In this document: in pieces, positions 15,340-38,660 of the stretch
How the letters are laid out: each line of letters opens with the position of its first letter
Position numbering within the stretch: the first letter of the stretch is position 1
From: an uncultured Rubrobacteraceae bacterium
GTDB lineage: Bacteria > Actinomycetota > Rubrobacteria > Rubrobacterales > Rubrobacteraceae
Assembly (NCBI GenBank): GCA_902806065.1
Contig: CADCVE010000005.1
Coordinates: forward strand, 1 to 53,901
Reading direction: 5' to 3'
DNA: 53,901 nucleotides
The notes under the pieces: model-generated
Seen by the model: only the letters and a program-made list of their open reading frames with translations
The model's database searches: none
Told to the model about the DNA's origin: nothing
Position numbers and translations under genes: made by a program

Positions 15340-17181
15340 GTGGCCAAGCGCCGACTTCCCAGCAGACGAGAGTTCATCCTCGCCAGCGCCGGTGCCGGTC
15401 TGATCGTGGTTGGCCTGCCGCCTGCACCCGCGTACGCCAGATCCCGCAGAGTAGAGATCCCCGGCATATCCATCGAAAGTGAACTCCTGGGAGAACCCGT
15501 ACCACGTTCCGGCTCGCCTGCCAACGAGCCACTGGCCCCGCCCGCTGCCGGTTCTCTGGAGACCCTGCGCTACGGCACGCCGAAGCAGGCTGGACTACTT
15601 CCGGAGTACGTCGGGCGCATAGACGCGGACGTGGCCTCTGGCATGGAGAACTCGCCCACTTACCCACACTACCCCGGCGCCGTGGCGCTGGCCGCCCGCA
15701 ATGGCGTGATCGCTCATTACCAAGCGTATGGTTACGCCGTCAAGTACGCTGACTCTGCGCCTACCCTGCTCCCGAGAGATGAGTGGGTGCCGATGCGAAA
15801 GGATACGATCTTCGACATCGCTTCCATGTCTAAGCTCTTCACCGCCATCGCCGCGGTGCAGCTGATCGAGCGGGGTCTACTTGACCTGGAGGCTCGGGTC
15901 GCCAGCTATATCCCGGAGTTCGCCCAGAACGGCAAGGAAGACGTCACCGTCCGGCATTTGCTGACTCACACGTCAGGGTTCACACCCTCACTCAAGCTCT
16001 ACGAAGACTACAAGACGCCGGAGGAGCTCATCGCCGCCGTGTACGCGCTGGGCCTGGAAAACACACCGGGGACGCACTATGCGTACAGCGACTTCAACCT
16101 GATCTCCATGGCCAAAATCATCGAAAAGCTCTCATCCCAACCACTGGACCGCTTCGTGGCCGCGAATATAACCAAACCGTTGGGCATGGATGATACTGGC
16201 TACAACCCACCGGAAGCAGAGCTTGAGCGTGTAGCCGCAACGGAGTATCAGCCCTGGACGGATCGCGGCATGATACGGGGCAGCGTCCACGACGAGAACG
16301 CCTGGGTTCTAAACGGCGTCGCCGGACACGCCGGGGTCTTCAGTACCGCGTACGACCTCGCCATACTCGCCCAGACCATCCTGAACGGCGGCCGGTATGG
16401 CAAGGCCCGCATCTTGTCCTCCAAGTCTGTCCAGACTCTCCTCCTGACGAACTACAACGCGGACTTCTCTGGCCACGACCATAGCCTGGGCTTCGAGTTG
16501 TACCAGCACTGGTACATGGACGCCATGGCGACGCCGTTAACCGTCGGGCACACTGGCTACACCGGCACCTCTATCGTCATAAACACATTCGACCGCTCAT
16601 TCGCCATCTTTCTGACGAACCGGGTCCACCCAAGCCGCGACTGGGGAACCATCCTCCCCTACCGGCGCGCCTTCGCCCGCAACGTGGCCCGCGCCATCGC
16701 CGTGAAACCCTCCGTGGGGACGAAAGCCTGGTTCTCCGGCTTCGGCGGTGGCCTGGACAAAACGCTCGACGTGCCGCTGACCCTTCCGGAAGGCCAGAAG
16801 AAACTTCGGTTCGACCTCTGGTACGACACCCAACCGGATGTCGATTTCGCGGCTGTCGAAGTCTCAGCGGATGAAGGGGCAACCTGGGAATCTCCCAGAG
16901 GAACCATCAGCGGTGAAAGCTCCGATGGCCGCTTCACTGGCTTCTCCGGCCGAAAGTGGCTGGACGCCGGCTTCGACCTGAGCCCGTACGCGGGACCGGT
17001 CACCTTGCGCCTGCGCTACCACACCACCGGCACCACCGATAACCTCAAGAAGGGCAACGGCAGGGGCGTGTACGTGGATCACGTTCGGGTGAGGGGGCCG
17101 CAAGGCGTCCTGTTCAACGACGCCCGCCCTCGGGACGCGGCCCTCTGGCAACCGCGAGGTTGGACCATAAGCCGGGACTAA
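15340..17181 (+). CDS. Tat-exported serine hydrolase of the beta-lactamase/PBP4-like family
   Basis: A 613-residue protein with a twin-arginine signal (SRREFIL, hydrophobic stretch, then PAYA cleavage region). The catalytic SxxK is Ser162-Met-Ser-Lys165; YSDFN and GHTGYTG supply the other two active-site motifs. Residues from about 430 form an extra C-terminal beta domain (DKTLDVPLTLPEGQ onward, with ETTTVDV-like strands ending VYVDHVRVRG), possibly for binding. Start GTG 15340 lies 3 bases after the NamZ fragment. By analogy to the AmiE-like gene beside namZ in Bacillus, it may act on muropeptides, but an esterase or D-peptidase is equally possible. Confidence 0.85.
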   Translation: MAKRRLPSRREFILASAGAGLIVVGLPPAPAYARSRRVEIPGISIESELLGEPVPRSGSPANEPLAPPAAGSLETLRYGTPKQAGLLPEYVGRIDADVASGMENSPTYPHYPGAVALAARNGVIAHYQAYGYAVKYADSAPTLLPRDEWVPMRKDTIFDIASMSKLFTAIAAVQLIERGLLDLEARVASYIPEFAQNGKEDVTVRHLLTHTSGFTPSLKLYEDYKTPEELIAAVYALGLENTPGTHYAYSDFNLISMAKIIEKLSSQPLDRFVAANITKPLGMDDTGYNPPEAELERVAATEYQPWTDRGMIRGSVHDENAWVLNGVAGHAGVFSTAYDLAILAQTILNGGRYGKARILSSKSVQTLLLTNYNADFSGHDHSLGFELYQHWYMDAMATPLTVGHTGYTGTSIVINTFDRSFAIFLTNRVHPSRDWGTILPYRRAFARNVARAIAVKPSVGTKAWFSGFGGGLDKTLDVPLTLPEGQKKLRFDLWYDTQPDVDFAAVEVSADEGATWESPRGTISGESSDGRFTGFSGRKWLDAGFDLSPYAGPVTLRLRYHTTGTTDNLKKGNGRGVYVDHVRVRGPQGVLFNDARPRDAALWQPRGWTISRD

Positions 17182-23552: not shown

Positions 23553-26081
23553 GTGACCCAGGCACCAGAGCGGTATATGGGGGGTGGCCTACCCCGCAAA
23601 GAGGACCCGGCGCTGGTAACTGGCCGGGCCAATTGGACCGATAACATCCAGCTCCCGGGGATGCTTCACTTGGCACTCCTACGCAGCCCGTTCGCCCACG
23701 CCAAAGTAACCCACCTGGACGTTTCGGGCGCTTTGGATCGCCCCGGCGTCGTCGCGGCCTTCACGGGCGAGGATCTCGCGGACGAGTGGCCGGGCGGCGT
23801 TCCCTGCGCAGCGGTGGTGACCGAGGAGCAGAATACTCCCTTTCAAGCTCCAATCGTCACGGACGAAGCAAGGTACATGGGCGACGTTGTGGCGGTGGTG
23901 TTGGCGACGGATCGCTACAAGGCCCAGGACGCTTTGGAGTCTATCGAGGTGGACTATGAGCCCCTGGGCGTGGTCGTGGATATGGAGAGTGCTTTAGAAG
24001 AAGGATCTCCGCTGGTACACGAGGAACTGGGAACCAACGAGTGCTTCACCTTCACCGCGGGGGTCGGGAACGTAGACGAACTCTTCGACAAGACGGACGA
24101 CCCGGATGACCAGGCTGCGGCCGCACGAGCACCCGATGTACAAGGCGAAGGGGACACGGACGCCGCCTTCGCCAAGGCGAACGTAGTTATCAAGGAGCGT
24201 TACATCCAGCAGCGGCTCCTACCGACCGCCATCGAGCCTCGTGCTACCGTCGCCTTTCAAGACCCCGGACACAACGGGTACGTGGTGTATTCGGCAACCC
24301 AGGTGCCGCATCTCGCGAAGATCGTGCTCTCTCTGGCTACCGGAATACCGGAGAACGAGATCCGGGTCGTGGCTCCGGACGTGGGCGGGGGGTTCGGTTC
24401 CAAGCTGAACGTGTACCGCGAGGAGATCCTGGCCCTCGTACTGGCCAAGAAGTTGGGCACGCCCGTCAAGTTCAACGAGGACCGCTCGGAGAACTACCAG
24501 GCGACCATCCACGGGCGCGGCCAGATCCAGGACATAGAGTTGGCCGCCACATCGGAGGGCAGGATCCTCGGTCTGAGGGTTAAGCTCCTGGATGACATGG
24601 GTGCCTACCTGCAGCTTCTGACCCCTGCTATCTCGGTCAGTGGGGCCGCCATGTTCCCCGGCGTCTACACCTTTGACGCGTTCTCTATCGAGATCAAGGG
24701 AGTCTTCACCAACCTGACCCCGACCGACGCTTACCGCGGCGCTGGCCGTCCCGAGGCGGCATACGCTATCGAGAGGGCCGTGGACTCCCTGGCCCGCAAG
24801 CTGGACATGGACCCGGCCGAGGTGCGGCGCAAGAACTTCTATGAGCCGTTCGACGAGCCGACCGAGACCCCCGGCGGTTTGCAGTACGACTCCATGAACA
24901 TGCAGGCAGCGATGGACCGTCTGGTAGAGCTGGCGGATTACGAGGGCCTGCGCCGCGAGCAGCAACAGCGGCGTGAGAACAACGATCCCGTCCAGCTCGG
25001 CCTCGGTTTCTCGACCTACACGGAGATCTGTGGTCTGGGACCCTCGCAGGCCCTCGCCGGGCTGGGACTCGGTGGCGGCGGCTGGGAGGCGGCCAACGTC
25101 AGGATGCTCGTGACGGGCAAGGTCGAGGTCGCAACCGGCACCTCCCCCCACGGCCAGGGCCACGAGACCTCCTGGGCTCAGATAGCCGCCGACGCCCTGG
25201 GCGTCACCCCCGACGACGTGGTGGTCATTCACGGAGATACGGCGGCCGTGCCCTTCGGCCGTGACACGTACGGCTCAAGGAGCCTCGCTGTGGGCGGCAT
25301 AGCGGTGCATCTGGCCTGCGAGAAGGTCGTGGACAAGGCCAAGAAGATAGCCGCGCACATGCTGGAGGCCGCCGAGGACGACCTGGAGTTCGAGGGTGGC
25401 AAGTTCAGTGTAGCTGGCTCACCCGACCAGAACGTCAGCATACAGGACGTCGCGGGCGGCGCGTACCTGGGTGCCGACATTCCAGAGGGGATGGAGCCAA
25501 CCCTCAACGAGAATATGACCTTCGACCCGCCCAACTTCACCTTCCCGTTTGGCGCGCATCTGTGCGTCACGGAGGTGGATACCGAGACCGGCAAGGCGTG
25601 GGTACGTGATTACTACGCGGTGGACGACTGTGGTCCGGTGATCAACCCGATCATCGTGGACGGCCAGTTGCACGGCGGGTTGGCTCAGGGTATCGCGCAA
25701 GCCCTGTACGAGGGGGTCATCTACTCCGAGGAAGGCAACCTGATGACCGGCTCGATGGTGGATTACATGATCCCCGGTGCCCCCGAGCTTCCCAACTTCA
25801 CTCTGGACCGGACGGTCACCCCTTCCCCGAGCAACCCGCTGGGAGTCAAGGGCGTGGGCGAGGCTGGGACTATCGGCTCACCGCCCGCCGTCATGAACTC
25901 CATCATCGACGCCCTGTCACCCCTCGGAGTGAAGCATATGGACATGCCCGCGCTCCCGATGCGGGTGTGGAACGCTATCCAGGATGCCCAAGGCAACGCC
26001 GCCGCATCGGGTGAGTACGACGCCGCGCTCGGGTCCCGCGAGGCCGACGTGAAGCAAGAGGGAAGGAGTGAAGAGAAGTGA
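23553..26081 (+). CDS. coxL: CoxL-like molybdenum-binding large subunit, form II
   Basis: An 842-residue xanthine-oxidase-family large subunit carrying molybdenum cytosine dinucleotide. The active-site loop reads AYRGAGR (residues 393-399), the form II signature, not the AYxCSFR loop of true aerobic CO dehydrogenase. The essential Glu lies at 770 (GVGEAG), and GGGFGSK, GHQ-type and QGHE segments contact the cofactor. An acidic low-complexity insertion at about residues 175-205 (DKTDDPDDQAAA) is unusual. Substrate of form II enzymes is mostly unknown, with weak CO activity reported for some. GTG start 23553. Confidence 0.93.
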   Translation: MTQAPERYMGGGLPRKEDPALVTGRANWTDNIQLPGMLHLALLRSPFAHAKVTHLDVSGALDRPGVVAAFTGEDLADEWPGGVPCAAVVTEEQNTPFQAPIVTDEARYMGDVVAVVLATDRYKAQDALESIEVDYEPLGVVVDMESALEEGSPLVHEELGTNECFTFTAGVGNVDELFDKTDDPDDQAAAARAPDVQGEGDTDAAFAKANVVIKERYIQQRLLPTAIEPRATVAFQDPGHNGYVVYSATQVPHLAKIVLSLATGIPENEIRVVAPDVGGGFGSKLNVYREEILALVLAKKLGTPVKFNEDRSENYQATIHGRGQIQDIELAATSEGRILGLRVKLLDDMGAYLQLLTPAISVSGAAMFPGVYTFDAFSIEIKGVFTNLTPTDAYRGAGRPEAAYAIERAVDSLARKLDMDPAEVRRKNFYEPFDEPTETPGGLQYDSMNMQAAMDRLVELADYEGLRREQQQRRENNDPVQLGLGFSTYTEICGLGPSQALAGLGLGGGGWEAANVRMLVTGKVEVATGTSPHGQGHETSWAQIAADALGVTPDDVVVIHGDTAAVPFGRDTYGSRSLAVGGIAVHLACEKVVDKAKKIAAHMLEAAEDDLEFEGGKFSVAGSPDQNVSIQDVAGGAYLGADIPEGMEPTLNENMTFDPPNFTFPFGAHLCVTEVDTETGKAWVRDYYAVDDCGPVINPIIVDGQLHGGLAQGIAQALYEGVIYSEEGNLMTGSMVDYMIPGAPELPNFTLDRTVTPSPSNPLGVKGVGEAGTIGSPPAVMNSIIDALSPLGVKHMDMPALPMRVWNAIQDAQGNAAASGEYDAALGSREADVKQEGRSEEK

Positions 26082-26929
26082 TTCCGGTAGCCTTTGACTA
26101 CGAGGTCGCCGAGTCGGTCGACCACGCAATAGAGTTGCTCGGGCAGCATGGGGAGGATGCCAAGCTCATAGCCGGGGGGCACTCCCTCATACCGATTATG
26201 CGGCTCAGGCTGGCCGCGCCGTCCGTGCTGATCGACCTGGACAGGCTGGACGATCTGAACTACGTCCGCGACGAGGGTGACCACCTGGCTATCGGCGCCA
26301 TGACCCGCCACCGCGATGTGCATTACAACGAGCTGGTCCGGGAGCACTGCGGCATCCTGGGTTATACCGCCGGGCTACTGGGCGACCCTTCGGTCCAGCA
26401 CCGGGGAACCCTCGGCGGGACTCTCGCTCACGGCGACCCCGCCGGCGACATGCCGAGTGTGATCTCCGCACTGGAAGGGACCATAGTGGTAAAGGGTCCG
26501 GACGGAGAGCGCACCGTGGGCGCTTCGGACTTCTTCAAGGACTACCTGTTCACGGACCTCGACGAGCAGGAGGTTGTAACGGAGGTTCGGGTCCCCAAGC
26601 TCAGCTCGGATACCGGCTGGTCGTACAAGAAGTTCAGCCGCCGGTCGCAGGACTGGGCCATAGTCGGCGTGGCGGCGGTCGTGGAGAAGTCCAACGGTAA
26701 CATCGACTCCGCTCGCATCGGGCTTACCAGCATGGGCTCCACTCCTATAAGAGCCACCGCCACCGAGCAAGCACTCTCGGGAGCCAGCCCGGATCAGGTC
26801 GCCGAAGCGGCCAATTCCGCCGATGAGGGCACTAGCCCCGGTACGGACGACGCAGCCTCGGCCGAGTTCCGGCGGCACCTGGCCCGGGTGTGGACCCGGC
26901 GAGCCATAGAGGAGGCTCTGAATCGTTGA
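26078..26929 (+). CDS. coxM: CoxM-like FAD-binding medium subunit
   Basis: A 283-residue FAD subunit of the molybdenum hydroxylase. N-terminal AGGHSLIPIMRLRLA and central GDPSVQHRGTLGG-type motif (here LGDPSVQHRGTLGGTLAHGDP) bind FAD, and the C-terminal CO_deh_flav_C domain follows. GTG 26078 overlaps the coxL stop by 4 bases. It accepts electrons from CoxS and passes them to the respiratory chain. The order S-L-M differs from the M-S-L order of classic form I clusters. Confidence 0.94.
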   Translation: MIPVAFDYEVAESVDHAIELLGQHGEDAKLIAGGHSLIPIMRLRLAAPSVLIDLDRLDDLNYVRDEGDHLAIGAMTRHRDVHYNELVREHCGILGYTAGLLGDPSVQHRGTLGGTLAHGDPAGDMPSVISALEGTIVVKGPDGERTVGASDFFKDYLFTDLDEQEVVTEVRVPKLSSDTGWSYKKFSRRSQDWAIVGVAAVVEKSNGNIDSARIGLTSMGSTPIRATATEQALSGASPDQVAEAANSADEGTSPGTDDAASAEFRRHLARVWTRRAIEEALNR

Positions 26930-27858
26930 GCGAAGCGGTTGACGGACGCCGGGGGGCCTTGCCCCCCGGCGTTTCGCATTCCCCGCAACTACGAGAGAGA
27001 CTTCGGGAAGACAGTTACCTGGCCGACGAAGGTCTCAGTACAGCTATCTTCCTCGCTCTCAAGCTCGGCCGTCCGCTCTTTCTCGAAGGCGAGGCCGGGG
27101 TCGGAAAGACCGAGGTCGCTAAAGTCCTCAGCAGGCTGCTCGACACCCCGCTCATCCGGCTGCAGTGCTACGAGGGGATAGACGTCCATCAGGCGGTCTA
27201 TGAATGGGACTACGCTCGCCAGCTCCTGCACATCAGGACGGCGGAGGCGTTTGGGGAGAAGGAGGATAGGCAGCGTTTCGAGGATGAGCTTTATACGCGG
27301 CAGTTCCTGGTAAGCCGACCGCTGTTGCAGGCGCTTGAGCATCAGGGGCCGAGTCCGCCGGTCTTGCTTATAGATGAGGTGGACCGGGCTGATGATGAGT
27401 TCGAGGCTTTTCTGCTGGAGATCCTCTCGGATTTTGCGATCACCATTCCGGAGCTTGGGACCGTGGCGGCCGAACGGCCACCGGTGGCCGTCCTCACCTC
27501 GAACCGGACGCGTGAGGTCCACGACGCGCTAAAGCGACGTTGCCTGTACTTCTACATAGACCATCCTGACGTGAAACGGGAGATAGAGATAGTACGGTTG
27601 AGGGTCCCCGGTGCGGAGGAGCACCTGGCCCGGCAGGTGGCGAAGGCCGTGCAGAACCTGCGGAGCATGAACCTGTACAAGCCGCCTGGCGTTGCCGAGA
27701 CCCTGGATTGGACCGAGGCGTTGGTTGCTTTAGGGGCTAAGGAGTTGGACGAGGGCCTGATCGAGGCTACGTTAGGGTCGGTAGTGAAGTACCGTGAGGA
27801 TCAGCAGCGCGTCCTTGGGGAGAGTCTGAGGCTGCTCGTGGCGAGCGGTGGTATCTAG
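26926..27858 (+). CDS. coxD: CoxD-like MoxR AAA+ ATPase
   Basis: A 310-residue MoxR ATPase with GEAGVGKTE, VLLIDEVDRAD and LTSNRTREVHDALKRRC. In CO dehydrogenase clusters CoxD is needed for assembly of the copper-sulfur part of the active site; here with a form II enzyme its exact task is uncertain. TTG 26926 overlaps the coxM stop by 4 bases, with GGAGG 10 bases upstream. A very strong hairpin lies within the first codons. It overlaps coxE, its VWA partner, by 11 bases. Confidence 0.9.
   Translation: MSEAVDGRRGALPPGVSHSPQLRERLREDSYLADEGLSTAIFLALKLGRPLFLEGEAGVGKTEVAKVLSRLLDTPLIRLQCYEGIDVHQAVYEWDYARQLLHIRTAEAFGEKEDRQRFEDELYTRQFLVSRPLLQALEHQGPSPPVLLIDEVDRADDEFEAFLLEILSDFAITIPELGTVAAERPPVAVLTSNRTREVHDALKRRCLYFYIDHPDVKREIEIVRLRVPGAEEHLARQVAKAVQNLRSMNLYKPPGVAETLDWTEALVALGAKELDEGLIEATLGSVVKYREDQQRVLGESLRLLVASGGI
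26946..26972 (+). repeat. 12-base perfect hairpin at the 5' end of coxD
   Basis: ACGCCGGGGGGC pairs perfectly with GCCCCCCGGCGT around a CTT loop, followed by TTC. It looks like a terminator or attenuator stem but lies inside the coding start of coxD. Confidence 0.8.
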
Positions 27859-29011
27859 GGACGTGCCGCAACAGAAAGCGCCGGTGCTCCAGGCGGCGGT
27901 GGCCTTCGGGCGCCTCCTCCGGCGGGCCGGTATAGCGGCGGGGCCAGACCGGGTAGTCGAGTTTACCCGGGCCTTGGAGGAGTTGGACGTTACCCGTCGT
28001 GAGGACGTCTACTGGGCAGGTAGGTTGACGCTGTGCTCCCGTCGGGAGGACCTCGACCTCTACGACAAGTTGTTTCGGGTGTTCTGGGAAGGGGCGGGGC
28101 TCACGCAGGCTCGGAAGCCGAAGATGCGTGTCTCGATCTCCCTCAGCGAAGATTCCGTGCAGCCGCCGAAGAAGACCGCCGAGAAGAACGATCAGGGTGA
28201 GGAGATGGTCCGTCTCCGCTACAGTCCCGTCGATGTACTGAGAAAGAAGGATTTCGCCCTTTATACGCCTGAGGAGTTCGCCGAGCTACACAAGCTCATG
28301 GCGAACCTCGACCTCTCTGGGACGCCGCGCAGGAGCCGCCGCCTCGACCCCGCACCCCGAGGCCGCCACGACCCGAGGATGACTCTCCGCGGCGCCCTGC
28401 GTACCGGAGGCGAGCCGCTTCGCCACCGCTTCCGGAAGCCCAGGAGCCGGCCGAGGAGGTTAGTGCTTTTGTGCGACATCTCCGGTTCGATGGCCCCCTA
28501 CAGCCGGACGCTTATACGATTCATGCATGCGGGCGTGGTCTCTGGAGTGCAATTGGAGGCTTTTGTTCTCGGCACCCGGCTGACCCGAATAACGCGGGAG
28601 CTTACGAGCCGGGACCCGGATCGTGCCATGAAGGAGGCATCTGAGGCGATCCGGGACTGGTCCGGCGGAACGCGGCTCGGGGACACTGTAAAGGAGTTCG
28701 TGGATCGCTGGGGCCAGCGCGGTATGGCCCGCGGCTCGGTCGTCGTGATACTCTCCGACGGTTGGGACCGGGGAGACGTCGAGGTGCTCGCCGAGCAGAT
28801 GATGCGCCTGCACCGCCTGGCCTACAAGGTCATCTGGGTCAACCCATTAAAGGCTGCACCTGGATACCAGCCGCTAGCGCGGGGTATGGCGGCGGCGCTA
28901 CCCCACGTGGACGTCTTTCTCTCCGGTCATAACTTCGAGTCTTTGGAGAAGTTAGCCCGGACTATAACTGGGGCGGCTTCAGAGAAGCAAAGAGGAGGAG
29001 GTCCGGGATGA
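27848..29011 (+). CDS. coxE: CoxE-like VWA-domain protein
   Basis: A 387-residue protein with a C-terminal von Willebrand A domain. The MIDAS metal motif is DISGSM at 210-215, with downstream Thr and Asp positions (GGTRLG, LSDGWDRGD). N-terminal region is helical. CoxE partners the AAA+ ATPase CoxD in maturing the molybdenum enzyme. GTG 27848 overlaps coxD; its stop overlaps the next start (ATGA). Confidence 0.88.
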   Translation: MVSRDVPQQKAPVLQAAVAFGRLLRRAGIAAGPDRVVEFTRALEELDVTRREDVYWAGRLTLCSRREDLDLYDKLFRVFWEGAGLTQARKPKMRVSISLSEDSVQPPKKTAEKNDQGEEMVRLRYSPVDVLRKKDFALYTPEEFAELHKLMANLDLSGTPRRSRRLDPAPRGRHDPRMTLRGALRTGGEPLRHRFRKPRSRPRRLVLLCDISGSMAPYSRTLIRFMHAGVVSGVQLEAFVLGTRLTRITRELTSRDPDRAMKEASEAIRDWSGGTRLGDTVKEFVDRWGQRGMARGSVVVILSDGWDRGDVEVLAEQMMRLHRLAYKVIWVNPLKAAPGYQPLARGMAAALPHVDVFLSGHNFESLEKLARTITGAASEKQRGGGPG

Positions 29012-29604
29012 AGGTAGAGATCGTGGTGTTTGACGGATTCGATGAGCTAGATGCCATCGCGCCTTTCGAGGTGTTGAAGGAAGCGGCCTTCGGCGGGGCC
29101 GACGTAGAGGTCGGTCTTGTTACCCTAAACGAGACCGAGGAGATCGTCGCCGCTCACGGGTTGCGGGTAAGGCCCGACGGCAGGCTCGGCGAGAGGCCGG
29201 AGGTGTTGATCGTTCCCGGAGGCGGTTTTGTCGGCCACTCCTCGCGGGGAGTTAGGGCCGAGATCCGGCGTGGCGACTTGCCAAAGGCTATCGTCCGCTT
29301 GCATGACGCCGGTGCCATGGTCGCATCGGTCTGCACGGGGGCCATGCTCCTTGCCGCCGCAGGATTGACCAAAGGCCGACCGGCAACCACGAACCACGCG
29401 GCGATGCAAGAACTCGGAGATACTGGCGCCGAGGTTGTAAAAGCTCGCGTCGTAGATGACGGAGACCTCGTGACGGCGGGAGGGGTGACTTCAGGGCTCG
29501 ATTTGGGGCTGTGGCTGATCGAACGTTACTTCGGCGCTCCGGGCGCTTCCGTGATGGAGAATGTGCTGGAATACGAGCGCCGCGGAGTGGTATGGCGACG
29601 CTAG
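29008..29604 (+). CDS. DJ-1/PfpI-family protein inside the cox operon
   Basis: A 198-residue DJ-1/PfpI-like protein. The nucleophile-elbow Cys109 sits in SVCTGAMLL, and an N-terminal Glu-containing stretch (FDGFDELDAIAPFEVL) supplies the usual acidic partner. Members act as isocyanide hydratases, glyoxalases, chaperones or regulators; GATase1-like AraC regulators have the same domain, but no HTH is fused here. It overlaps coxE by 4 bases, so it belongs to the operon. Its task beside a molybdenum hydroxylase is not known. Confidence 0.85.
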   Translation: MKVEIVVFDGFDELDAIAPFEVLKEAAFGGADVEVGLVTLNETEEIVAAHGLRVRPDGRLGERPEVLIVPGGGFVGHSSRGVRAEIRRGDLPKAIVRLHDAGAMVASVCTGAMLLAAAGLTKGRPATTNHAAMQELGDTGAEVVKARVVDDGDLVTAGGVTSGLDLGLWLIERYFGAPGASVMENVLEYERRGVVWRR

Positions 29605-29626
29605 AGGAAAGAGAAGGAGACGTTAC

Positions 29627-29941
29627 GTGAATCCAGTCGTGGACAAGGTTGCAAAGTGGCGTGAGGAGGATAAGAAGGTCGCCATGGCCACGGTGGTCAA
29701 GGTCGAGAGATCCGGGCCTCTAGGTCCCGGTACCTCGATGGCTGTCTCCGAGGATGGTCAGGTGGCGGGGTCGGTGAGCGGCGGGTGTGTGGAGCCGGCG
29801 GTCTACGAAGAAGCGATGGAGGCGATAGAAAGCGGGAGGCCGAAGCTTCTGACGTACGGCATCTCCGATGACGAGGCGTTTGGCGTGGGGTTGACGTGTG
29901 GTGGGATCGTTCACATCTTTGTGGAGAGGGTAGATTGGTAG
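29627..29941 (+). CDS. XdhC/CoxI N-terminal-domain protein
   Basis: A 104-residue protein equal to the XdhC_CoxI domain (VDKVAKWREEDKKVAMATVV then GSVSGGCVEP and GLTCGGIVHIFVE). XdhC binds molybdenum cofactor and helps its sulfuration and insertion. GTG 29627 follows GAAGGAG. The partner Rossmann domain is coded separately by the next gene, one base overlapping, so the classic two-domain protein is split. Confidence 0.88.
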   Translation: MNPVVDKVAKWREEDKKVAMATVVKVERSGPLGPGTSMAVSEDGQVAGSVSGGCVEPAVYEEAMEAIESGRPKLLTYGISDDEAFGVGLTCGGIVHIFVERVDW

Positions 29942-30792
29942 TGAGCATCCTCGAACGCTGGCACGCGGCCCTCGTCGGGCAGTCACCCGTGGCGATCGCG
30001 ACCGTAATACAGGGTCCGGGGACGGGGGGCAAGGTGCTGGTCTCCCCGGAGGACCACGTCGGCAGCGCGGGCAACGAGGACCTCGACCGGGCTATCATCG
30101 AGGGGGCGCGGGCGATGCTCGAAGGCGGCAAGACCGGGACGGCGCACTACGGTCCGCGCGGGCAGCGACGCATGGAGGACGTCGCGGTCTTTATCCAGTC
30201 CTTCGCTCCGCCGCCCAAGATGTACGTATTTGGGGCCATAGACTTTGCAAGTGCGGTAGCGCGTATTGGAAAGTTCATGGGTTACCGGGTCACCGTTTGT
30301 GATGCGCGGGCGGTCTTTGCCACGCGGGACCGGTTCCCTTCGGCTGATGAGATTGTGGTGGCGTGGCCGGACGAGTTCTTGAAGACGGCCGAGGTGGACA
30401 AGCGCACGGTCATCTGCGTGCTCACCCACGACCCCAAGTTCGACGTGCCGGTTCTGAAGGCCGCGCTCGAAACTCCGGCGGGTTATATAGGGGCGATGGG
30501 TAGCCGGCGGACTCACGACAACCGGACGGCGCGTTTGAAGGAAGAGGGGATCACAGATGAGGAGCTTGCGCGTATTAGTAGTCCGGTTGGGTTGGATATC
30601 GGGTCGCGCACACCGGAGGAGACGGCCGTAGCGATAGCCGGAGAGATCATAGCGCAGCGCACCGGACATTCGGGAGGGCGGCTCGCGGAACGGTCGGGAC
30701 CCATACACGCGCAGGAGCCGGACACGGCTACCTCGCCTGACGCGAGGGACGCGGAACGAAGCGCCGCGGAGGCCGCAGTTCGGGAGAGATGA
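29941..30792 (+). CDS. XdhC C-terminal-domain protein (Moco maturation factor)
   Basis: A 283-residue protein with an N-terminal XdhC-like part and the XdhC Rossmann fold (YVFGAIDFASAVARIGKFMGYRVTVCDAR, VAWPDEFL, IGAMGSRRT). It should hand sulfurated molybdenum cofactor to the CoxL subunit. GTG 29941 overlaps the preceding stop by one base and the next gene begins in the last codons. The C-terminal 35 residues are a charged, low-complexity tail. Confidence 0.87.
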   Translation: MSILERWHAALVGQSPVAIATVIQGPGTGGKVLVSPEDHVGSAGNEDLDRAIIEGARAMLEGGKTGTAHYGPRGQRRMEDVAVFIQSFAPPPKMYVFGAIDFASAVARIGKFMGYRVTVCDARAVFATRDRFPSADEIVVAWPDEFLKTAEVDKRTVICVLTHDPKFDVPVLKAALETPAGYIGAMGSRRTHDNRTARLKEEGITDEELARISSPVGLDIGSRTPEETAVAIAGEIIAQRTGHSGGRLAERSGPIHAQEPDTATSPDARDAERSAAEAAVRER

Positions 30793-31421
30793 GCGGGATC
30801 TCGGCCATCGTGCTGGCGGCGGGGGCGGGGAGCCGGTTCGGGGGTGGCAAGCTGCTGGCGGACTTCGAGGGTCGGACCCTGATAGAGGCTACTTTGTCGA
30901 AACTGCGCGAGGCGCCGGTAGATGAGATAATCGTGGTGGTCGGAGCCGAAGGGGAAAGGCTACGCAGCATAAGCATCGCGTACGAGACCCGCATAGTCGA
31001 GAACCCGGACTGGGCAGAGGGTATGTCTACCTCGGTACGTGCCGGGCTATTAGCCTGTGCCCCCGACACGCGAGCAGCGGTCGTCTCCCTGGCGGACCAA
31101 CCGCTGGTCGGGGCGGAGGCGGTGGAGAGGCTCGTTGGGGCTTTCGAGGACGGGGCGGAGGTGGCGGTGGCGACCTACGGAGGCGAGCCCCGCAACCCGG
31201 TGCTCTTCGGCCGGCGGGTCTGGCCGCTGCTGTTGCGCGAGTTGTCGGGTGACAGGGGTGCGAGAGTGTTCCTCAAGCGCCATCGAGAATCGGTAACGGA
31301 GGTGCCTTGCGATGATGTAGCTGACCCGGCCGACGTAGATACCGTGGAGGACCTGCGGCGTCTGGAGGAGCGTTCGGAAGCCAGACGCGGCGGGAAGATT
31401 GGTCAAAGGAGGAACTGGTGA
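30789..31421 (+). CDS. MocA-like molybdenum cofactor nucleotidyltransferase
   Basis: A 210-residue NTP-transferase. The N-terminal loop LAAGAGSRFGGGKLL binds the nucleotide; LADQPLV and RNPVLFGRR motifs fit MobA/MocA-type enzymes. It most likely adds CMP to molybdopterin to form MCD, the cofactor form used by CO dehydrogenase-type enzymes. ATG 30789 overlaps XdhC by 4 bases, and its stop overlaps coxG. Confidence 0.85.
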   Translation: MSGISAIVLAAGAGSRFGGGKLLADFEGRTLIEATLSKLREAPVDEIIVVVGAEGERLRSISIAYETRIVENPDWAEGMSTSVRAGLLACAPDTRAAVVSLADQPLVGAEAVERLVGAFEDGAEVAVATYGGEPRNPVLFGRRVWPLLLRELSGDRGARVFLKRHRESVTEVPCDDVADPADVDTVEDLRRLEERSEARRGGKIGQRRNW

Positions 31422-32197
31422 AGCTAGAGAATGAGTTTACCGTAGACGTACCGGTAGAGGACGTCTGGAGCGTGTTGCTCGACCTGGAGCGGATAACGCC
31501 TTGCCTGCCGGGGGCCGCTCTGACGGAGGAGACTGGTGATAGCGAGTACGACGGGAAGATGAAAGTGAAGCTCGGACCCGTCACGCAAGAGTACAAGGGC
31601 ACGGTCAAGATCGAGGAGGCCGACGAGTCCCAGCACCGGGCGGTGCTCAAAGCCGATGGTAAGGACGCCCGGGGACAGGGTACGGCTTCAGCGACCATCA
31701 CCTCCACCCTGCACGATGAAGGGAACGGTAGCACCCGGGTGCAGGTCGAGACCGACATGCAGATCACCGGTCGCGCGTCGCAGTTCGGCCAGGGCATCCA
31801 GCAACAGGTCTCCGAGAAACTCCTCACCCGGTTCGCCGACTGCCTGGAGCAAGAGATCGTGGGCGGCGGAGGAGCCGGAGACGGTACCGGGTCCGCTGCG
31901 ACACAGACCGAGCCGTCCGCGAACGGCTCGTCTGGAGAGTCTCAACCTCAGAGCGGTACCAACCAGCAGGGGGGCGGCCGGCAGGGGGGCGCCCAGCAGG
32001 AAGAAGACGTCGAGGCACTGGACCTCGGCGAGGCGAGCCAGGGTGTGATCCTGGAGCGCGTCAAGCCGCTTGTGCCGATAGCAGCCGGCGTCGGCGTTCT
32101 GCTCGTGTTGTTGTGGCTCTTCAAGAGAGGCGGAAACGGATCCGCAAGCCAGCCAGGTAAAGGGCGAGCGGAATTCGAGGCCCACTTGAGGTTCTGA
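31418..32197 (+). CDS. coxG: CoxG-like SRPBCC protein with C-terminal membrane anchor
   Basis: A 259-residue protein with an N-terminal SRPBCC (CoxG) domain (FTVDVPVEDVWSVLLDLERI, CLPGA), a Gln/Gly-rich linker and a single C-terminal membrane helix (PIAAGVGVLLVLLWLF). CoxG proteins anchor CO dehydrogenase to the membrane and can bind quinones. GTG 31418 overlaps the MocA-like gene. It is the last gene before a terminator. Confidence 0.87.
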   Translation: MKLENEFTVDVPVEDVWSVLLDLERITPCLPGAALTEETGDSEYDGKMKVKLGPVTQEYKGTVKIEEADESQHRAVLKADGKDARGQGTASATITSTLHDEGNGSTRVQVETDMQITGRASQFGQGIQQQVSEKLLTRFADCLEQEIVGGGGAGDGTGSAATQTEPSANGSSGESQPQSGTNQQGGGRQGGAQQEEDVEALDLGEASQGVILERVKPLVPIAAGVGVLLVLLWLFKRGGNGSASQPGKGRAEFEAHLRF

Positions 32198-32998: not shown

Positions 32999-33787
32999 TT
33001 ACGTCGTATTTCGGAGGTCCTGAATCAAGGGCGCATCATCGTCTACCTCTCCGTCTGTCTCGGTACCGCCGATGGGGATGAGGGTGCCCCGGATCTCCTG
33101 ACCGAGGTCTCCCTTCGGGTTCGTCCGGGTCGGCAGGGCTTCGACGAAGGGCAACATCTGCACCTTGAACACCTCGTAGATCCGCCGCAACTCGACTATG
33201 GGATCCGAATGTTCGTCTACCCGCAGGTCTACATAAGGGTAGGGCTGGTCCTTGACCGTAAATACGGCGGCGCTTTGCTTACCTCGTTTGTCTCCGCCTG
33301 CCGCCTGCCCCGCCTCCAGCACACGCATCAGGCGTTCCGGCAGAGGCTCGTTCATAGATGTTTCGAAGGTCTCGGCCATGGCCGAGACGACTTCTTCCCC
33401 GGCGACCAGGTTCCCGGTTACCGCGTAACCGTCCCCTGTGATGTGTCCGCGCCAGGGATCCGTGTCCGCGCCGGTGTGGGCGGCGGAACGTCCCTGTGAG
33501 TCGACGATGCCGACCTGCCTCTTCTCCGGCTCAGGGTCGGAGCCGAGGAGTATTCTCAGAGTCTCCGTGGCATCGTAGCCTCGCTGCAGCAGGTCTAACC
33601 CATCGTACCCCAGAAGGGGATTGGTCCGTGCCTGAGTAGCTATCGCCCCGACCCCGGCTCGGGCGTAGGGTACCAGGACCCCCACCGCCGGGAGCTTGGT
33701 GCTCGCGGCGACCCCGAACATCCCGGAGGCGGAGTCGTAGGCGGCGATAGAGAACGTATTTAGGGTCAGCGAGGTAGTCGAGTGCAT
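32999..33787 (-). CDS. DUF1028 putative Ntn-hydrolase
   Basis: A 262-residue DUF1028 protein (NTFSIAAYDSASGMFGVAAST, RAGVGAIATQARTNPLLG). The family is predicted to be an N-terminal nucleophile hydrolase-fold enzyme, with Thr or Ser near the N-terminus exposed after processing (Thr in NTFSI here). A short C-terminal extension (PYVDLRVDEHSDPIVELRRI) matches the peptidoglycan-related tail of some members. It starts 29 bases after the AsnB gene and is likely its operon partner, possibly hydrolysing the product made by the upstream ligases. The start has a weak ribosome site. Confidence 0.82.
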   Translation of the reverse strand: MHSTTSLTLNTFSIAAYDSASGMFGVAASTKLPAVGVLVPYARAGVGAIATQARTNPLLGYDGLDLLQRGYDATETLRILLGSDPEPEKRQVGIVDSQGRSAAHTGADTDPWRGHITGDGYAVTGNLVAGEEVVSAMAETFETSMNEPLPERLMRVLEAGQAAGGDKRGKQSAAVFTVKDQPYPYVDLRVDEHSDPIVELRRIYEVFKVQMLPFVEALPTRTNPKGDLGQEIRGTLIPIGGTETDGEVDDDAPLIQDLRNTT

Positions 33788-33816
33788 TTTTGGGCTTTCT
33801 GTAGTTGTTCGGAGTT

Positions 33817-35592
33817 TTAGATTCCTCGCGACTGGAGCCAGAGCTCGAGGAGGGCTATCTGCCAGAGCTTGTTGCTCCCGAGCCGGGTGGAATGATCGTT
33901 GGGCTCACCGAGGAGCTTGTCTATGTACTCTTTCCGGAAGATGCCACGCTCTCTGGCGGCCGGGGCGAGGAGGGCTGACTTCACGAGGTTGAGGTAGGGA
34001 CCTTCGAGGTGCTTGAGGGCCGGTACCGGGAAGTAGCCTTTCTCTCGGTCGATGACTTCCGCGGGGATTACCTGTCGAGAGGCCTCTTTCAAGACGCCCT
34101 TGCCACCCCCTTTTAACTTTAGCTCCGGCGGGCAGGCGGCGGCGAGCTCGACGAGGTCGTGGTCGAGAAAGGGTACGCGGGCTTCTAGTCCCCAAGCCAT
34201 GGTCATATTGTCTACCCTTTTTACCGGGTCGTCTACTAGCATTACCTCGGTATCCAGCCTGAGGGCGCGGTCGAGCGGGCTGGCGGCGCCGGGCTTGCCG
34301 AAGTGCTTCGCCACGAATGCCCGGCTTACGTCCTTCTCGACCCGATACTCGGGGTTCAGCACCTCTGACATCTCGGCGTGCGGGCGGTCGAAGAACTCGG
34401 CCTCGTAGGTGTTGAGTCCGTCGCCGTTGGCGTCGGCCAGCGGCGGGTACCAGTCGTAGCCCGCGAAGATCTCATCGGCCCCCTGGCCCGACTGGACTAC
34501 TTTGATGTGCTTCGCTACCTCCTCGCTGAGGAGGTAGAAGGCCACGACGTCGTGGCTGACCATCGGTTCGCTCATCGCGTGGATCGCCCCGTCGAGAGCC
34601 GGCAGCATGCGGTCGCTGGAGACGCGGAAGCGGTGGTGCTTCGTGCCGTAGTGCTCGGCGATGATGTCCGAGAACTCGAACTCGTCGCCCTCTATGTCTC
34701 CGACTGTCTCGAAGCCGATGCTGAAGGTCTGCAGGTCTGGCTGGCCCATCTCGGCAAGCAGGCCGACGATCATGCTTGAATCCAGCCCGCCTGAGAGGAG
34801 CACCCCGACCGGTACGTCGGAGACCATGCGACGCTCGACTGCTACGCGCAGCGCCTCCAGAACGGCCTCTTCCCAGTCGTCCGCGGACATACCGGCGTGG
34901 GCGGGGTTTCGGGAGAAGCTCGGGCTCCAGTACCGCACTTCGCGGCGGCTGCCGTCCGGCTCTATCACCAGCAGTGTCCCCGGCGCGAGCTTGCGGACTC
35001 CCTTGAGCATGGTGTACGGGGCCGGGACGACGGCGTGGAACATCAGGTAGTGGTGCAGCGCTACGGTGTCGATGGAGGTATCCACGCCGCCCCCGGCGAG
35101 GAGTGCCGGGAGGGTCGAGGCGAAGCGCAAGGCGCCACCCGCTTCGGAGAGGTACAGCGGCTTGATGCCGAGCCTATCGCGGCCCAGGATTACGCGTCCG
35201 GTATCACGTTCGGTGAGGCAGAAGGCGAACATGCCCTTGAGTCGATCCACGAAGCGTTCGCCCCAGCAGTGGTAACCCTTCAGGAGGACCTCGGTGTCGG
35301 AGGTCGAGAAGAAGCGGTAGCCTTTCTGGGATAGCTCCTTGCGTAGCTCGGGGTAGTTATAGATGCAGCCGTTGAAGCTAATTGTCAGGCCGAGTTCGGG
35401 GTCGGTCATGGGCTGGGAGCCGTTTTCGGAGAGGTCTATGATCTTCAACCGGCGGAAGGAGAGGGCTAGGGGACCGCTCGCCCAGGTCCCGCTGCCATCC
35501 GGCCCGCGGTCGTCCATCGTGGCGGCCATACGGGTGACCGCCTCTACGTCGGCCAACTCTCCCACGCGTAGCTCACCGGCGAAACCGCACAT
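33817..35592 (-). CDS. asnB: AsnB-type glutamine-dependent amidotransferase
   Basis: A 591-residue protein with a class II glutaminase domain (MCGFAGEL, with nucleophile Cys2) and an asparagine-synthetase PP-loop domain (LLSGGLDSSMIVGLL). Both catalytic parts look intact. Members of this subfamily amidate side chains or C-termini of small peptides, for example in N-acetylglutaminylglutamine amide synthesis; free asparagine synthesis is also possible. ATG 35592 with AAGGAGGG. It follows the ATP-grasp gene by 9 bases. Confidence 0.88.
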   Translation of the reverse strand: MCGFAGELRVGELADVEAVTRMAATMDDRGPDGSGTWASGPLALSFRRLKIIDLSENGSQPMTDPELGLTISFNGCIYNYPELRKELSQKGYRFFSTSDTEVLLKGYHCWGERFVDRLKGMFAFCLTERDTGRVILGRDRLGIKPLYLSEAGGALRFASTLPALLAGGGVDTSIDTVALHHYLMFHAVVPAPYTMLKGVRKLAPGTLLVIEPDGSRREVRYWSPSFSRNPAHAGMSADDWEEAVLEALRVAVERRMVSDVPVGVLLSGGLDSSMIVGLLAEMGQPDLQTFSIGFETVGDIEGDEFEFSDIIAEHYGTKHHRFRVSSDRMLPALDGAIHAMSEPMVSHDVVAFYLLSEEVAKHIKVVQSGQGADEIFAGYDWYPPLADANGDGLNTYEAEFFDRPHAEMSEVLNPEYRVEKDVSRAFVAKHFGKPGAASPLDRALRLDTEVMLVDDPVKRVDNMTMAWGLEARVPFLDHDLVELAAACPPELKLKGGGKGVLKEASRQVIPAEVIDREKGYFPVPALKHLEGPYLNLVKSALLAPAARERGIFRKEYIDKLLGEPNDHSTRLGSNKLWQIALLELWLQSRGI

Positions 35593-35601
35593 CAGCCCTC
35601 C

Positions 35602-36954
35602 TTAATCCTCTAGAACCCAGGTGTCCTTGAAGCTCCCTCCAGCTGAGGAGTTTACGACACGGGTGCCGGGGCTCGCTACCCTCGTCAGGCCCCCGGGCAT
35701 GACGTAGCCGATGGCCGGGAGCACGAAGACCCGCAGGTCTATGAACGCCTCTTCAAACGCCGAGCCCTCGCCTTTGAGGACGTGCGTGGAGATGTCCAGG
35801 AACTCCTGGGCTGAGTACTTCGTCGGGTCCTCCTTCATGTCACGGCGTGCCTGGTCCAGGTCCTCCTTGCTGGCTTCGGGGCCCATGACGAGGCCCTTGC
35901 CCCCGTAGCCCTCCCGGGGCTTGAGGACCATCTCGTGCAGGCGGTCCAGCACTTCCTCTCTCTGATCCGGATCAGAGGTGGAGAACGTAGGGGCGTTTTG
36001 CATGAGCGGTTTCTCTCCGAGGTAGCGCTCTATCATTGCCGGGACGTAGGGGAACACGGCCTTGTCGTCGGCTACGCCCACGCCCGGAGAGTTGACGATG
36101 TTGACCTTGCCTTCGAGGTAGGCGGCTCTGAGTTCGGGGAAGGTAGTGTCCAGGAAAGCCTCGTCGAAGCGACGGTAGATCACATCTATCCTCCGCCCGT
36201 CGGAGCGGTCCCGAACCTCGCCATTGATGACTTGGCAATCGGCGAGCTCGACGAGCTGGATGTTGCACGCCTGGGCTATGCGGCTGTGCTCGAAGTACGC
36301 TGAGTCGTCTTTGCCGGTAGTGACGACCGCGACGCACGGCTCCTGGATCCCGGGGAGGGCTGCCGTTTCGAGGGACCTGCGGAGCACGGCGTAGTAGGTA
36401 GAGATGGCGCTGATGCGGTAGGGTTCGTACAGGGCTCTCATGGCCTCCAGCCCGGCCCGCCGGATGGCCTCAGAGTAGGCGACGCCGCTGGGTACCCGTA
36501 CGTTGTCCTCCAGGACCACGTACTCCCTGGGTCCGAGCTGAACCACATCCGGGCCGTAGACGTGGACCGGGACGGAGTGCTCGGGTAATGGACCGGGCCG
36601 GTAGTTGATGCTGGTCTCTACTATCTCCTCCGGTACCACGTCTTGCTCGCCGTTGTACAGGTCGGCGAGCCAGGCGTTGATCGCGTACCCTCTCTGCAAC
36701 AACCCCCTGGAGAGTATCTCCCGGTGGTCTTTAGGGACGATTCTAGGGAGCCAGTCCGCCGGTAGTATGCGGTCTTTCCCCTCAGGGTCATCGGGCAACG
36801 GAAAGGTCGCCCCAAGCTCGCGCAGCTTCTCGCCGGCCTTTGCAAGCTCCTCTTCCCCAATGCGCTCCAGGGCCTCGAACAGCGGCTTGTATCGCTCGCG
36901 GAGTTTGCCTCCAGGCTCGAAGACTTCGTTGAAATGCTCCGTCTCAATCTCCAT
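35602..36954 (-). CDS. Circularly permuted ATP-grasp ligase (DUF404/DUF407 type)
   Basis: A 450-residue protein with permuted ATP-grasp signatures (YGPDVVQLGPREYVVLEDN, YLEGKVNIVNSPGVGVADDKA, VLKPREGYGGKGLVMGPEA). Such enzymes join carboxylates to amines, making peptide or glutamate amide bonds. The ATG at 36954 overlaps the upstream GCS2 gene by 11 bases and is preferred over an upstream in-frame ATG at 36987. GGGGG precedes it. Substrates unknown; the genomic partners suggest it extends the product of the carboxylate-amine ligase. Confidence 0.85.
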   Translation of the reverse strand: MEIETEHFNEVFEPGGKLRERYKPLFEALERIGEEELAKAGEKLRELGATFPLPDDPEGKDRILPADWLPRIVPKDHREILSRGLLQRGYAINAWLADLYNGEQDVVPEEIVETSINYRPGPLPEHSVPVHVYGPDVVQLGPREYVVLEDNVRVPSGVAYSEAIRRAGLEAMRALYEPYRISAISTYYAVLRRSLETAALPGIQEPCVAVVTTGKDDSAYFEHSRIAQACNIQLVELADCQVINGEVRDRSDGRRIDVIYRRFDEAFLDTTFPELRAAYLEGKVNIVNSPGVGVADDKAVFPYVPAMIERYLGEKPLMQNAPTFSTSDPDQREEVLDRLHEMVLKPREGYGGKGLVMGPEASKEDLDQARRDMKEDPTKYSAQEFLDISTHVLKGEGSAFEEAFIDLRVFVLPAIGYVMPGGLTRVASPGTRVVNSSAGGSFKDTWVLED

Positions 36955-38290
36955 TAGCCCCCGCTCTCGTCGCTTTCGCTGCTCCACGCCGGGGCGATGT
37001 TACCTGTTTCTCGAACTCACTACAGGCTTCACGTACCAACTCCAATCCTCTCTCCGGGGAGATCCGCGAGACCGGAGACGGGAAGCCTCGCAGAATCCCC
37101 GCCTCCGTGGTCCTGTAAAACCTACCGTCCCTCAAACCCTCGAAACCGGTCTCTTCACCGGACGCGCTCAAGACATTGCCACCTGCGAACCGCAGCACGG
37201 AGTCGAGGTAGGCGACGACCTCCGGGCTCTCGACCCCTTCTGTCACGGCGGCGCGGAAGAGTTCCCCATTGAGGTACCCGAAGTCCGGTACGAGGAGCCT
37301 ATCGCCGGAGACCTCGAAGGCGTGCAGGCTCTCCCTCGGAGTGACCGCGAGGCGTTCCTGCCGAACCCGGTCGGCGGCGGCGCTTACAAGGGCGCAGATC
37401 TCCAACACCTTTTCGGGATAGTTGCTGTCGATCCCCCGCAACTCGACCGTACCGTGTTGGTTGAGGCGCACGGGGTTCCAGGAGGACGCCCGGAGCAATG
37501 TGCCTCCCGTCTCAAAGAAGAGCCTGCGCTCCACTCTCGCCCGGTCGAGTGCTTCGAGCCAGGCATGATAGCGAGCGAACTGCTGCCCGATCAACTCCTC
37601 GACGCTACCGGCGTAAGGCAGCAAGCCTCCGACTTCTTGCAGACGGGCGTACAGGCCGTGAGGCGCGAGGGACGGGTCTCCGCGGTAGAGCGCGGTACGC
37701 GCGGCCATTCCATCGGCTAGGCCCTCGTGGAACGGGCACGAGCGGGTAAGCGCTATGAGCGCGGCGTCCAGCGCCGTCGCCAGGTTGTAGAGGTTCAGCA
37801 GTTCCTCCCGCCCGGCCTCTTCGGAGTCGTAGGAGACGCCAGCCTGTGGGTCTACTGTTCCTTCCGCTACCTCCAGGTGTAGATGCGCCCCGGCGCAGCG
37901 GCCGGCATGCCTGAACCGCTCCCGTCCGACCGCGCGGGCCTGAAGATAATAGTGGGGCTCGTCGCGTATCTCGGGTTGCACGGGGAGCGGGTAGGTCGCC
38001 AGCGGGTAGAGCCGGAGCCCTATCTCCCGCCCGGCGTTCAGGGCCAGCCCTAGGCTCGTCACGTACTCACGCGTGAGCTCCGCGAGGGAGTGTACCGGGG
38101 GCGTGTTTATCTCCACCATGCTTCTGGCGCACTCCGGCGAGAAGCTCTCGGGGTCCCGCCCCGACTCCCTCGCCGCCTCTCGACACAAGACAAGGAACTC
38201 ATCCGCCCGGTTCGAGAGGATGCCGTCCTCGTCCACCAGGAAGAATTCCTGCTCCAGCCCCACACATCGATCCGCTACAGTCGCCAACAA
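36944..38290 (-). CDS. GCS2-family carboxylate-amine ligase (YbdK-like)
   Basis: A 448-residue glutamate-cysteine ligase-like enzyme. The N-terminal VGLEQEFFLVD motif and the later HLHLEV, GTVELRGID regions are family landmarks for binding ATP and Mg. It likely forms an amide between a glutamate-type carboxylate and an amine. I prefer TTG 38290, with GGAG 7 bases upstream; TTG at 38296 is also in frame. First gene of the four-gene operon. Confidence 0.85.
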   Translation of the reverse strand: MLATVADRCVGLEQEFFLVDEDGILSNRADEFLVLCREAARESGRDPESFSPECARSMVEINTPPVHSLAELTREYVTSLGLALNAGREIGLRLYPLATYPLPVQPEIRDEPHYYLQARAVGRERFRHAGRCAGAHLHLEVAEGTVDPQAGVSYDSEEAGREELLNLYNLATALDAALIALTRSCPFHEGLADGMAARTALYRGDPSLAPHGLYARLQEVGGLLPYAGSVEELIGQQFARYHAWLEALDRARVERRLFFETGGTLLRASSWNPVRLNQHGTVELRGIDSNYPEKVLEICALVSAAADRVRQERLAVTPRESLHAFEVSGDRLLVPDFGYLNGELFRAAVTEGVESPEVVAYLDSVLRFAGGNVLSASGEETGFEGLRDGRFYRTTEAGILRGFPSPVSRISPERGLELVREACSEFEKQVTSPRRGAAKATRAGANGD

Positions 38291-38660
38291 TACCAAGCTC
38301 CAGACTCAGAGATTACAGTCGTAAATCTAAACGCCAGACCGGGACGTTGCCAATGGCCCGGTGGAGAAGGCCGCGCCGCCACGGTTGGCCCGATGGAGAA
38401 GACTGCGCACCGCTCGGGTACGAAAACTGTATCGTAGGCCCGGCATGGGCCCCTTTCGGAGGGTTCGAATGGCCTCGTGTCCAAACGAAGGCGGTGTTTG
38501 CGAGGGCAACCTTGTACTTGTGGCGGAAGAATCCGTATGGCAGCGACCCTTATAGTTGAGCCGCTTTCCCTTACCCTCCGGCGGGGAGCTGCGAGCCTGG
38601 AGTCCGCCGGAACTCTTTCTCGGGAAGGGACGTTGCTGGAACTACAATCAGGAGGACGAG
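38291..38660. other. Divergent intergenic region
   Basis: A 370-base gap between the amidoligase operon (minus) and the 38661 gene (plus). It has two imperfect copies of a GGCCCG(A/G)TGGAGAAG motif about 40 bases apart. No gene supported. Confidence 0.4.

Follow-up and report, generated by a model that had tools for sequence, protein, structure and literature searches.

What would a bacterium make with two peptide ligases, a glutamine amidotransferase and a hydrolase encoded side by side? Four such genes are tightly packed on the minus strand (32999-38296) of the window, as we call the entire stretch of 53,901 nucleotides analysed. Its source is a 3.75 Mb genome of the Rubrobacter family (95% complete), of the same genus as Rubrobacter marinus SCSIO 52915 (G002). 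The proteins were assigned to families by Pfam and NCBIfam profile searches with curated cut-offs. In order of transcription the genes encode a GCS2 ligase (36944-38296, 450 residues, TTG start; PF04107, 48.8 bits, cut-off 21), a circularly permuted ATP-grasp peptide ligase (CPATP; 35602-36987, 461 residues from a GTG start; PF14403, 305.7 bits, cut-off 32), an AsnB-type glutamine amidotransferase (33817-35592, 591 residues; PF00733 and GATase domains well above their cut-offs) and a DUF1028 Ntn-type hydrolase (32999-33787, 262 residues; PF06267, 248.5 bits, cut-off 26.2). A preliminary description had named the same four one-strand genes; all the open reading frames were found and every Pfam family scores above its cut-off. 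The gaps it gave of 9 bases (CPATP to AsnB) and 29 bases (AsnB to DUF1028) were reproduced. Its 11-base overlap of GCS2 and CPATP is obtained if CPATP starts at an alternative in-frame ATG at 36954, but from the GTG the overlap is 44 bases. The span 36944-38290 covers the GCS2 gene alone, with 38290 a slightly later start than the TTG at 38296. A consensus scan located a weak promoter-like element, TTGGCA-18-TAGATT (38324-38353, minus strand, 9 of 12 matches), upstream of GCS2; it says nothing on function. Among the operon's genes we recognised neither an osmotic-stress regulator nor a transporter. Elsewhere in the window, a CO/xanthine dehydrogenase-type set (MoCo large subunit, CoxE-like VWA, DJ-1/PfpI, XdhC, MobA-like and CoxG proteins) is encoded on the plus strand at 23553-32197, convergent with the operon, and a protein with a beta-lactamase fold and an immune-inhibitor-A-like MAM domain at 15340-17181, also on the plus strand.

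The window AsnB scores 969.8 bits (cut-off 570.1) against TIGR03104, the model of the N-acetylglutaminylglutamine (NAGGN) amidotransferase AsnO. The protein begins MCG, in agreement with the intact Cys2 reported earlier, and carries the motifs NGCIYN, SGGLDS and SGQGADE, the first and last of which are the family's own. An ordinary asparagine synthetase was considered and rejected. The cut-off of TIGR01536 is also passed, but TIGR03104 scores far higher; SGQGADE and NGCIYN stand where such synthetases have SGE and NGEIYN; and the protein lies apart from the outgroup synthetases in the tree, at about one substitution per site. Clustering with those synthetases, which the preliminary description had named as an observation that would count against it, was thus not seen. 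The same description took the product to be unknown and knew of no characterised pathway with this gene order, overlooking that the AsnB falls within the equivalog of the characterised NAGGN pathway. In that pathway Ngg N-acetylates one glutamine and joins a second to it, and AsnO then amidates the C-terminal carboxylate using glutamine (PMC8070244); the operon supports growth of Pseudomonas aeruginosa at high osmolarity (PMC8070244). In Azospirillum brasilense the annotated trio runs, as is standard, from AsnO through Ngg to an M42 peptidase.

A profile search of the window's 95% complete genome did not find Ngg; for TIGR03103, whose cut-off is 569 bits, the best match scored 28. Ngg was not found either in G002 or in two further Rubrobacter relatives (G001, G024). 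It sits directly behind AsnO in G074, G047 and G086, and in other Actinomycetota AsnBs that are 64-69% identical to that of the window adjoin a full Ngg (>850 bits). A canonical NAGGN operon is ruled out by the genome's lack of Ngg. Since in addition the third-gene slot is occupied by DUF1028 and not by an M42 peptidase, and the AsnO residues differ (see below), the window operon is not the NAGGN system proper.

The gene neighbourhoods of TIGR03104 place this operon in a wider pattern. TIGR03104 genes occur in 45 of 396 Actinomycetota, 31 of 299 Pseudomonadota and 24 of 121 Streptosporangiales (the order of Sphaerisporangium) genomes; neighbours were classified by tblastn for about 110 loci, and 30 Pseudomonadota loci were read. 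We designate as type A an AsnO beside Ngg, and as type B a GCS2 and/or CPATP (sometimes fused) that precedes AsnB, with no Ngg and usually with a hydrolase (S9 or DUF1028) after AsnB. Actinomycetota contributed 31 Ngg-type and 12 GCS2/CPATP-type loci (n = 45), with one locus having S9 only and one cut by a contig end. Pseudomonadota loci were Ngg-type in 27 of 30 cases; three had no recognised partner within 1.5 kb and none was of the GCS2/CPATP type. Among the 24 Streptosporangiales loci, 21 carry GCS2 and/or CPATP, three have S9 only and none has Ngg. The type-B layout is also present in Frankia gtarii, Candidatus Frankia nodulisporulans and Pseudofrankia asymbiotica. Rather than being a one-off, the window operon has a type of layout that is frequent among Actinomycetota. 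GCS2 and Ngg occur together in none of the roughly 110 classified loci. CPATP and Ngg meet only in L352 (5313-14277; contig 23 of G443), where a full AsnO-Ngg-M42 trio is divergent from a CPATP / alpha-E / transglutaminase / Anbu cluster. Two lone TIGR03104 AsnBs with unusual C-termini (L355, 6852-8636, Arthrobacter agilis; and L275) have no Ngg, GCS2, CPATP or S9 neighbours.

Type-B loci vary in their ligases. In Sphaerisporangium rufum, G118, G319 and G388, AsnB is preceded by a single protein in which GCS2 and CPATP are fused. Streptomyces type-B loci have GCS2 but lack CPATP; in Streptomyces fungicidicus the locus CNQ36_RS33395-33385 is publicly annotated as glutamate--cysteine ligase, N-acetylglutaminylglutamine amidotransferase, alpha/beta hydrolase. 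CPATP is also missing from the loci of genus g35 (genomes of 8-9.7 Mb), and together with the S. fungicidicus locus these suggest a single ligation can suffice. GCS2-CPATP pairs that stand without AsnB (G017, G327) suggest that the ligases make a peptide and that amidation is an optional last step. On contig 32 of G327 (L071 / L267) the GCS2-CPATP fusion is followed directly by an S9 peptidase, and the AsnB found between them in sister genomes is missing. The preliminary logic of two ligations, an amidation and a hydrolase fits all of the findings, except that two ligations are not universal: Streptomyces does without CPATP, and in G024 the GCS2 relative lies elsewhere.

Type-A and type-B AsnBs have the catalytic motifs in common and differ at a few other positions. 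Residue 568 is Leu or Ile in all 60 readable type-A sequences and Arg, Lys, Ser or Thr in all 38 of type B. Residue 572 is Arg in 52 of 60 type-A sequences and Gly in 38 of 38 type-B sequences, while residue 380, just behind SGQGADE, is His in 59/61 of type A and mostly Ser, Asp or Arg in type B; at 573 the split is near-complete, as at 572 and 380. The window AsnB has Ser-568, Gly-572 and Asp-380 in place of the type-A residues, and its C-terminus, STRLGSNKLWQ, is the type-B form. All five S9-only loci have type-B residues. The pattern suggests that the substrate has changed while the chemistry has stayed as it was. A single type-B AsnB clade is not rejected (p-AU 0.208 and 0.498) and the type-B proteins may be one clade; the 38 sequences are therefore not independent, and the link between residue and context possibly reflects only one or two evolutionary events. 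These data bear on whether the product could be NAGGN itself, with GCS2 and CPATP in place of Ngg, one of them making Gln-Gln, an acetyltransferase elsewhere supplying the cap and AsnO forming the same amide. Membership of the NAGG amidotransferase equivalog, and the motifs in common, would be expected in that case. We nevertheless regard it as unlikely: type-B AsnO is separate from type A, with no overlap at 568 and nearly none at 572, 573 and 380, the type-B loci examined showed no acetyltransferase, and a gamma-glutamyl ligase would be superfluous for NAGGN.

The GCS2 ligase is most likely a gamma-glutamyl ligase, judging by its modelled fold and conserved residues. The AlphaFold model (pTM 0.84) has glutamate-cysteine ligases and YbdK as its best PDB matches, and Gly-13, Glu-15, Glu-17, Glu-55, Glu-62, His-140, Arg-200, Arg-277, Glu-285, Arg-287 and Asp-290 are invariant in alignment A4, distant relatives included. 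Against TIGR02050 (the YbdK subfamily) it scores 68.8 bits, below the cut-off of 176.4; two GCS2s of other type-B loci score 273-277 bits. The Rubrobacter GCS2s form a very long branch in the GCS2 tree, separate from the YbdK-type GCS2s of other type-B loci and far from every characterised GCS2. This tree includes two Streptomyces entries in the wrong reading frame (L041, L208) and one junk general row (L242), which leave the conclusion unaffected. The window's own genome encodes on contig 65 (L260, 4482-5801) a second divergent Rubrobacter GCS2, about 58% identical to that of the operon, with neither CPATP nor AsnB alongside. A role in ergothioneine synthesis as EgtA was ruled out, TIGR03444 giving no match. 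CPATP has a single sequence-level relative in the PDB, 3n6x (E 2e-81), named as a putative glutathionylspermidine synthase; the Rubrobacter CPATPs form one clade (99/97) and the fusion CPATPs a different one (99/95). Glutathione amide occurs in purple sulfur bacteria, and a thiol peptide amide would result here if GCS2 made gamma-Glu-Cys, CPATP added a third residue as a glutathione-synthetase analogue and AsnB amidated the product. The glutamate-cysteine ligases heading the matches of the GCS2 model and the name given to 3n6x both point this way. Neither the EgtA nor the GshA model calls the window GCS2, however, the operon has no thiol enzymes and the AsnB lies inside a Gln-Gln amidotransferase family, so that we consider a thiol product quite unlikely.

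The slot for the hydrolase is filled by DUF1028 in the window operon, by S9 elsewhere and by M42 in the classical trios. The AlphaFold model of the DUF1028 protein is closest to 2imh, followed by proteasome beta, HslV and Anbu. Thr-11 is invariant and in several relatives comes directly after the start Met, a pattern typical of an N-terminal-nucleophile hydrolase, as which the protein is predicted to act. The operon copies form a clade separate from the DUF1028s common in the Rubrobacter family (SH-aLRT 99). The S9 enzyme of one Streptomyces-like type-B locus resembles aminoacyl/acylamino-acid-releasing peptidases, which would fit an N-blocked peptide substrate. As has been proposed for other amidoligase clusters, the GCS2-CPATP pair might instead modify a protein or peptide, with DUF1028 reversing the modification and AsnB amidating the glutamates of the tag. 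The proteasome-like fold of DUF1028, and the presence of Anbu beside other CPATPs, are what such a system would lead one to expect, but the operon lacks genes for alpha-E, transglutaminase and Anbu, the window CPATP belongs to a separate clade and the characterised AsnB family uses a free dipeptide. This makes tagging highly improbable. On the same absence of alpha-E, transglutaminase and Anbu, membership of the CPATP-Anbu clusters was rejected.

The arrangement is mostly kept together in relatives; scattering of the genes, named beforehand as a finding that would speak against a pathway, was seen only in part. G001 and G002 repeat the order GCS2-CPATP-AsnB, G002 with DUF1028 as well; G024 has CPATP-AsnB-DUF1028 together and its GCS2 relative elsewhere; and in G013 the end of AsnB adjoins DUF1028 on a short contig. 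Because of this recurrence we do not attribute the operon to chance. Several Rubrobacter-family genomes have CPATP orthologs standing alone. In R. marinus (L040, 2303-7493 of NZ_CP045121) GCS2, CPATP and DUF1028 are each in two frames and AsnB is intact, through either sequencing error or decay. It could still be argued that AsnB-DUF1028 and GCS2-CPATP serve two unrelated functions on one transcript, and each pair is indeed also found without the full set (G024, G013, G017). Against this, GCS2/CPATP ligases that are not orthologous recur beside TIGR03104 in Streptomyces, Frankia and Streptosporangiales, always replacing Ngg, and we hold two unrelated functions to be very unlikely. A single homologous type-B operon inherited everywhere was ruled out for the ligases and the hydrolase, whose subfamilies differ; the AsnBs alone may be one clade. 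Between the Rubrobacter operon and the other type-B loci, ligases and hydrolases differ in subfamily, and the layout is therefore built of non-orthologous parts. That equal slots around AsnO are filled by different proteins speaks for a genuine pathway and against a chance arrangement.

We therefore favour, with a probability of about 60%, a peptide-amide pathway that is a variant of the NAGGN type and caps the N-terminus differently. GCS2 and CPATP would replace Ngg: GCS2 would most likely activate the gamma-carboxylate of glutamate and join an amino acid to it, probably Gln or Glu, and CPATP would form another amide bond, so that a short peptide results with a gamma-glutamyl cap and Gln at its C-terminus. 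This end would then be amidated by the type-B AsnO. The Thr-type DUF1028 enzyme would degrade unwanted product, as would an S9 enzyme resembling acylaminoacyl-peptidases in Streptomyces, Streptosporangiales and other groups; turnover is also the presumed role of M42 in classical trios. The product would be a small and polar amidated peptide, probably acting as a compatible solute; any particular exact structure, such as gamma-Glu-Gln-(Gln)-amide, is a doubtful guess. If the pathway is as proposed, the small peptide amide that many Actinomycetota with an annotated NAGGN amidotransferase (Streptomyces, Frankia, Streptosporangiales, Rubrobacter) make is another, uncharacterised one, the pairing of GCS2 with CP-ATPgrasp and one DUF1028 subgroup gain a concrete and testable product class, and the AsnO 568/572 signature would separate both pathways in genome mining. 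A broader proposal, which we put forward tentatively, is that Actinomycetota widely make amidated peptide osmolytes of a second class, with a gamma-glutamyl cap and no N-acetyl group. GCS2 and CP-ATPgrasp ligases, non-orthologous parts brought together with a re-specialised AsnO, would build them, and the amidotransferase would cause this class to be labelled at present as NAGGN biosynthesis. A literature search for the type-B layout, DUF1028, circularly permuted ATP-grasp with GCS2, and N-acetylglutaminylglutamine with ATP-grasp found none of these; an earlier description may stand in older amidoligase or NAGGN work outside that search.

Compared with known systems, the window operon resembles the CP-ATPgrasp / alpha-E / transglutaminase / Anbu clusters in combining a type 2 CP-ATPgrasp with an Ntn-fold hydrolase, but its CPATP is only about 40% identical and of a separate clade. 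Its GCS2 has the fold and catalytic residues of YbdK, EgtA and the glutamate-cysteine ligases, yet falls under the TIGR02050 cut-off, has no EgtA match and sits on a very long branch. With the NAGGN system (P. aeruginosa PA3459-PA3461, Sinorhizobium asnO-ngg, Azospirillum brasilense) it has in common the amidotransferase equivalog, at about 56-69% identity, and the general plan of a peptide ligase, an amidotransferase and a hydrolase; it differs in having GCS2 and CPATP and no Ngg, DUF1028 where NAGGN has M42, ligases that precede AsnB where Ngg follows it, and other residues at 380, 568 and 572. The GCS2(-CPATP)-AsnB-S9 loci of Streptomyces and Streptosporangiales likewise place GCS2 and/or CPATP ahead of a type-B AsnB and a hydrolase behind it, whereas their GCS2 is YbdK-type, their CPATP is of another clade, fused or absent, and their hydrolase is S9 instead of DUF1028.
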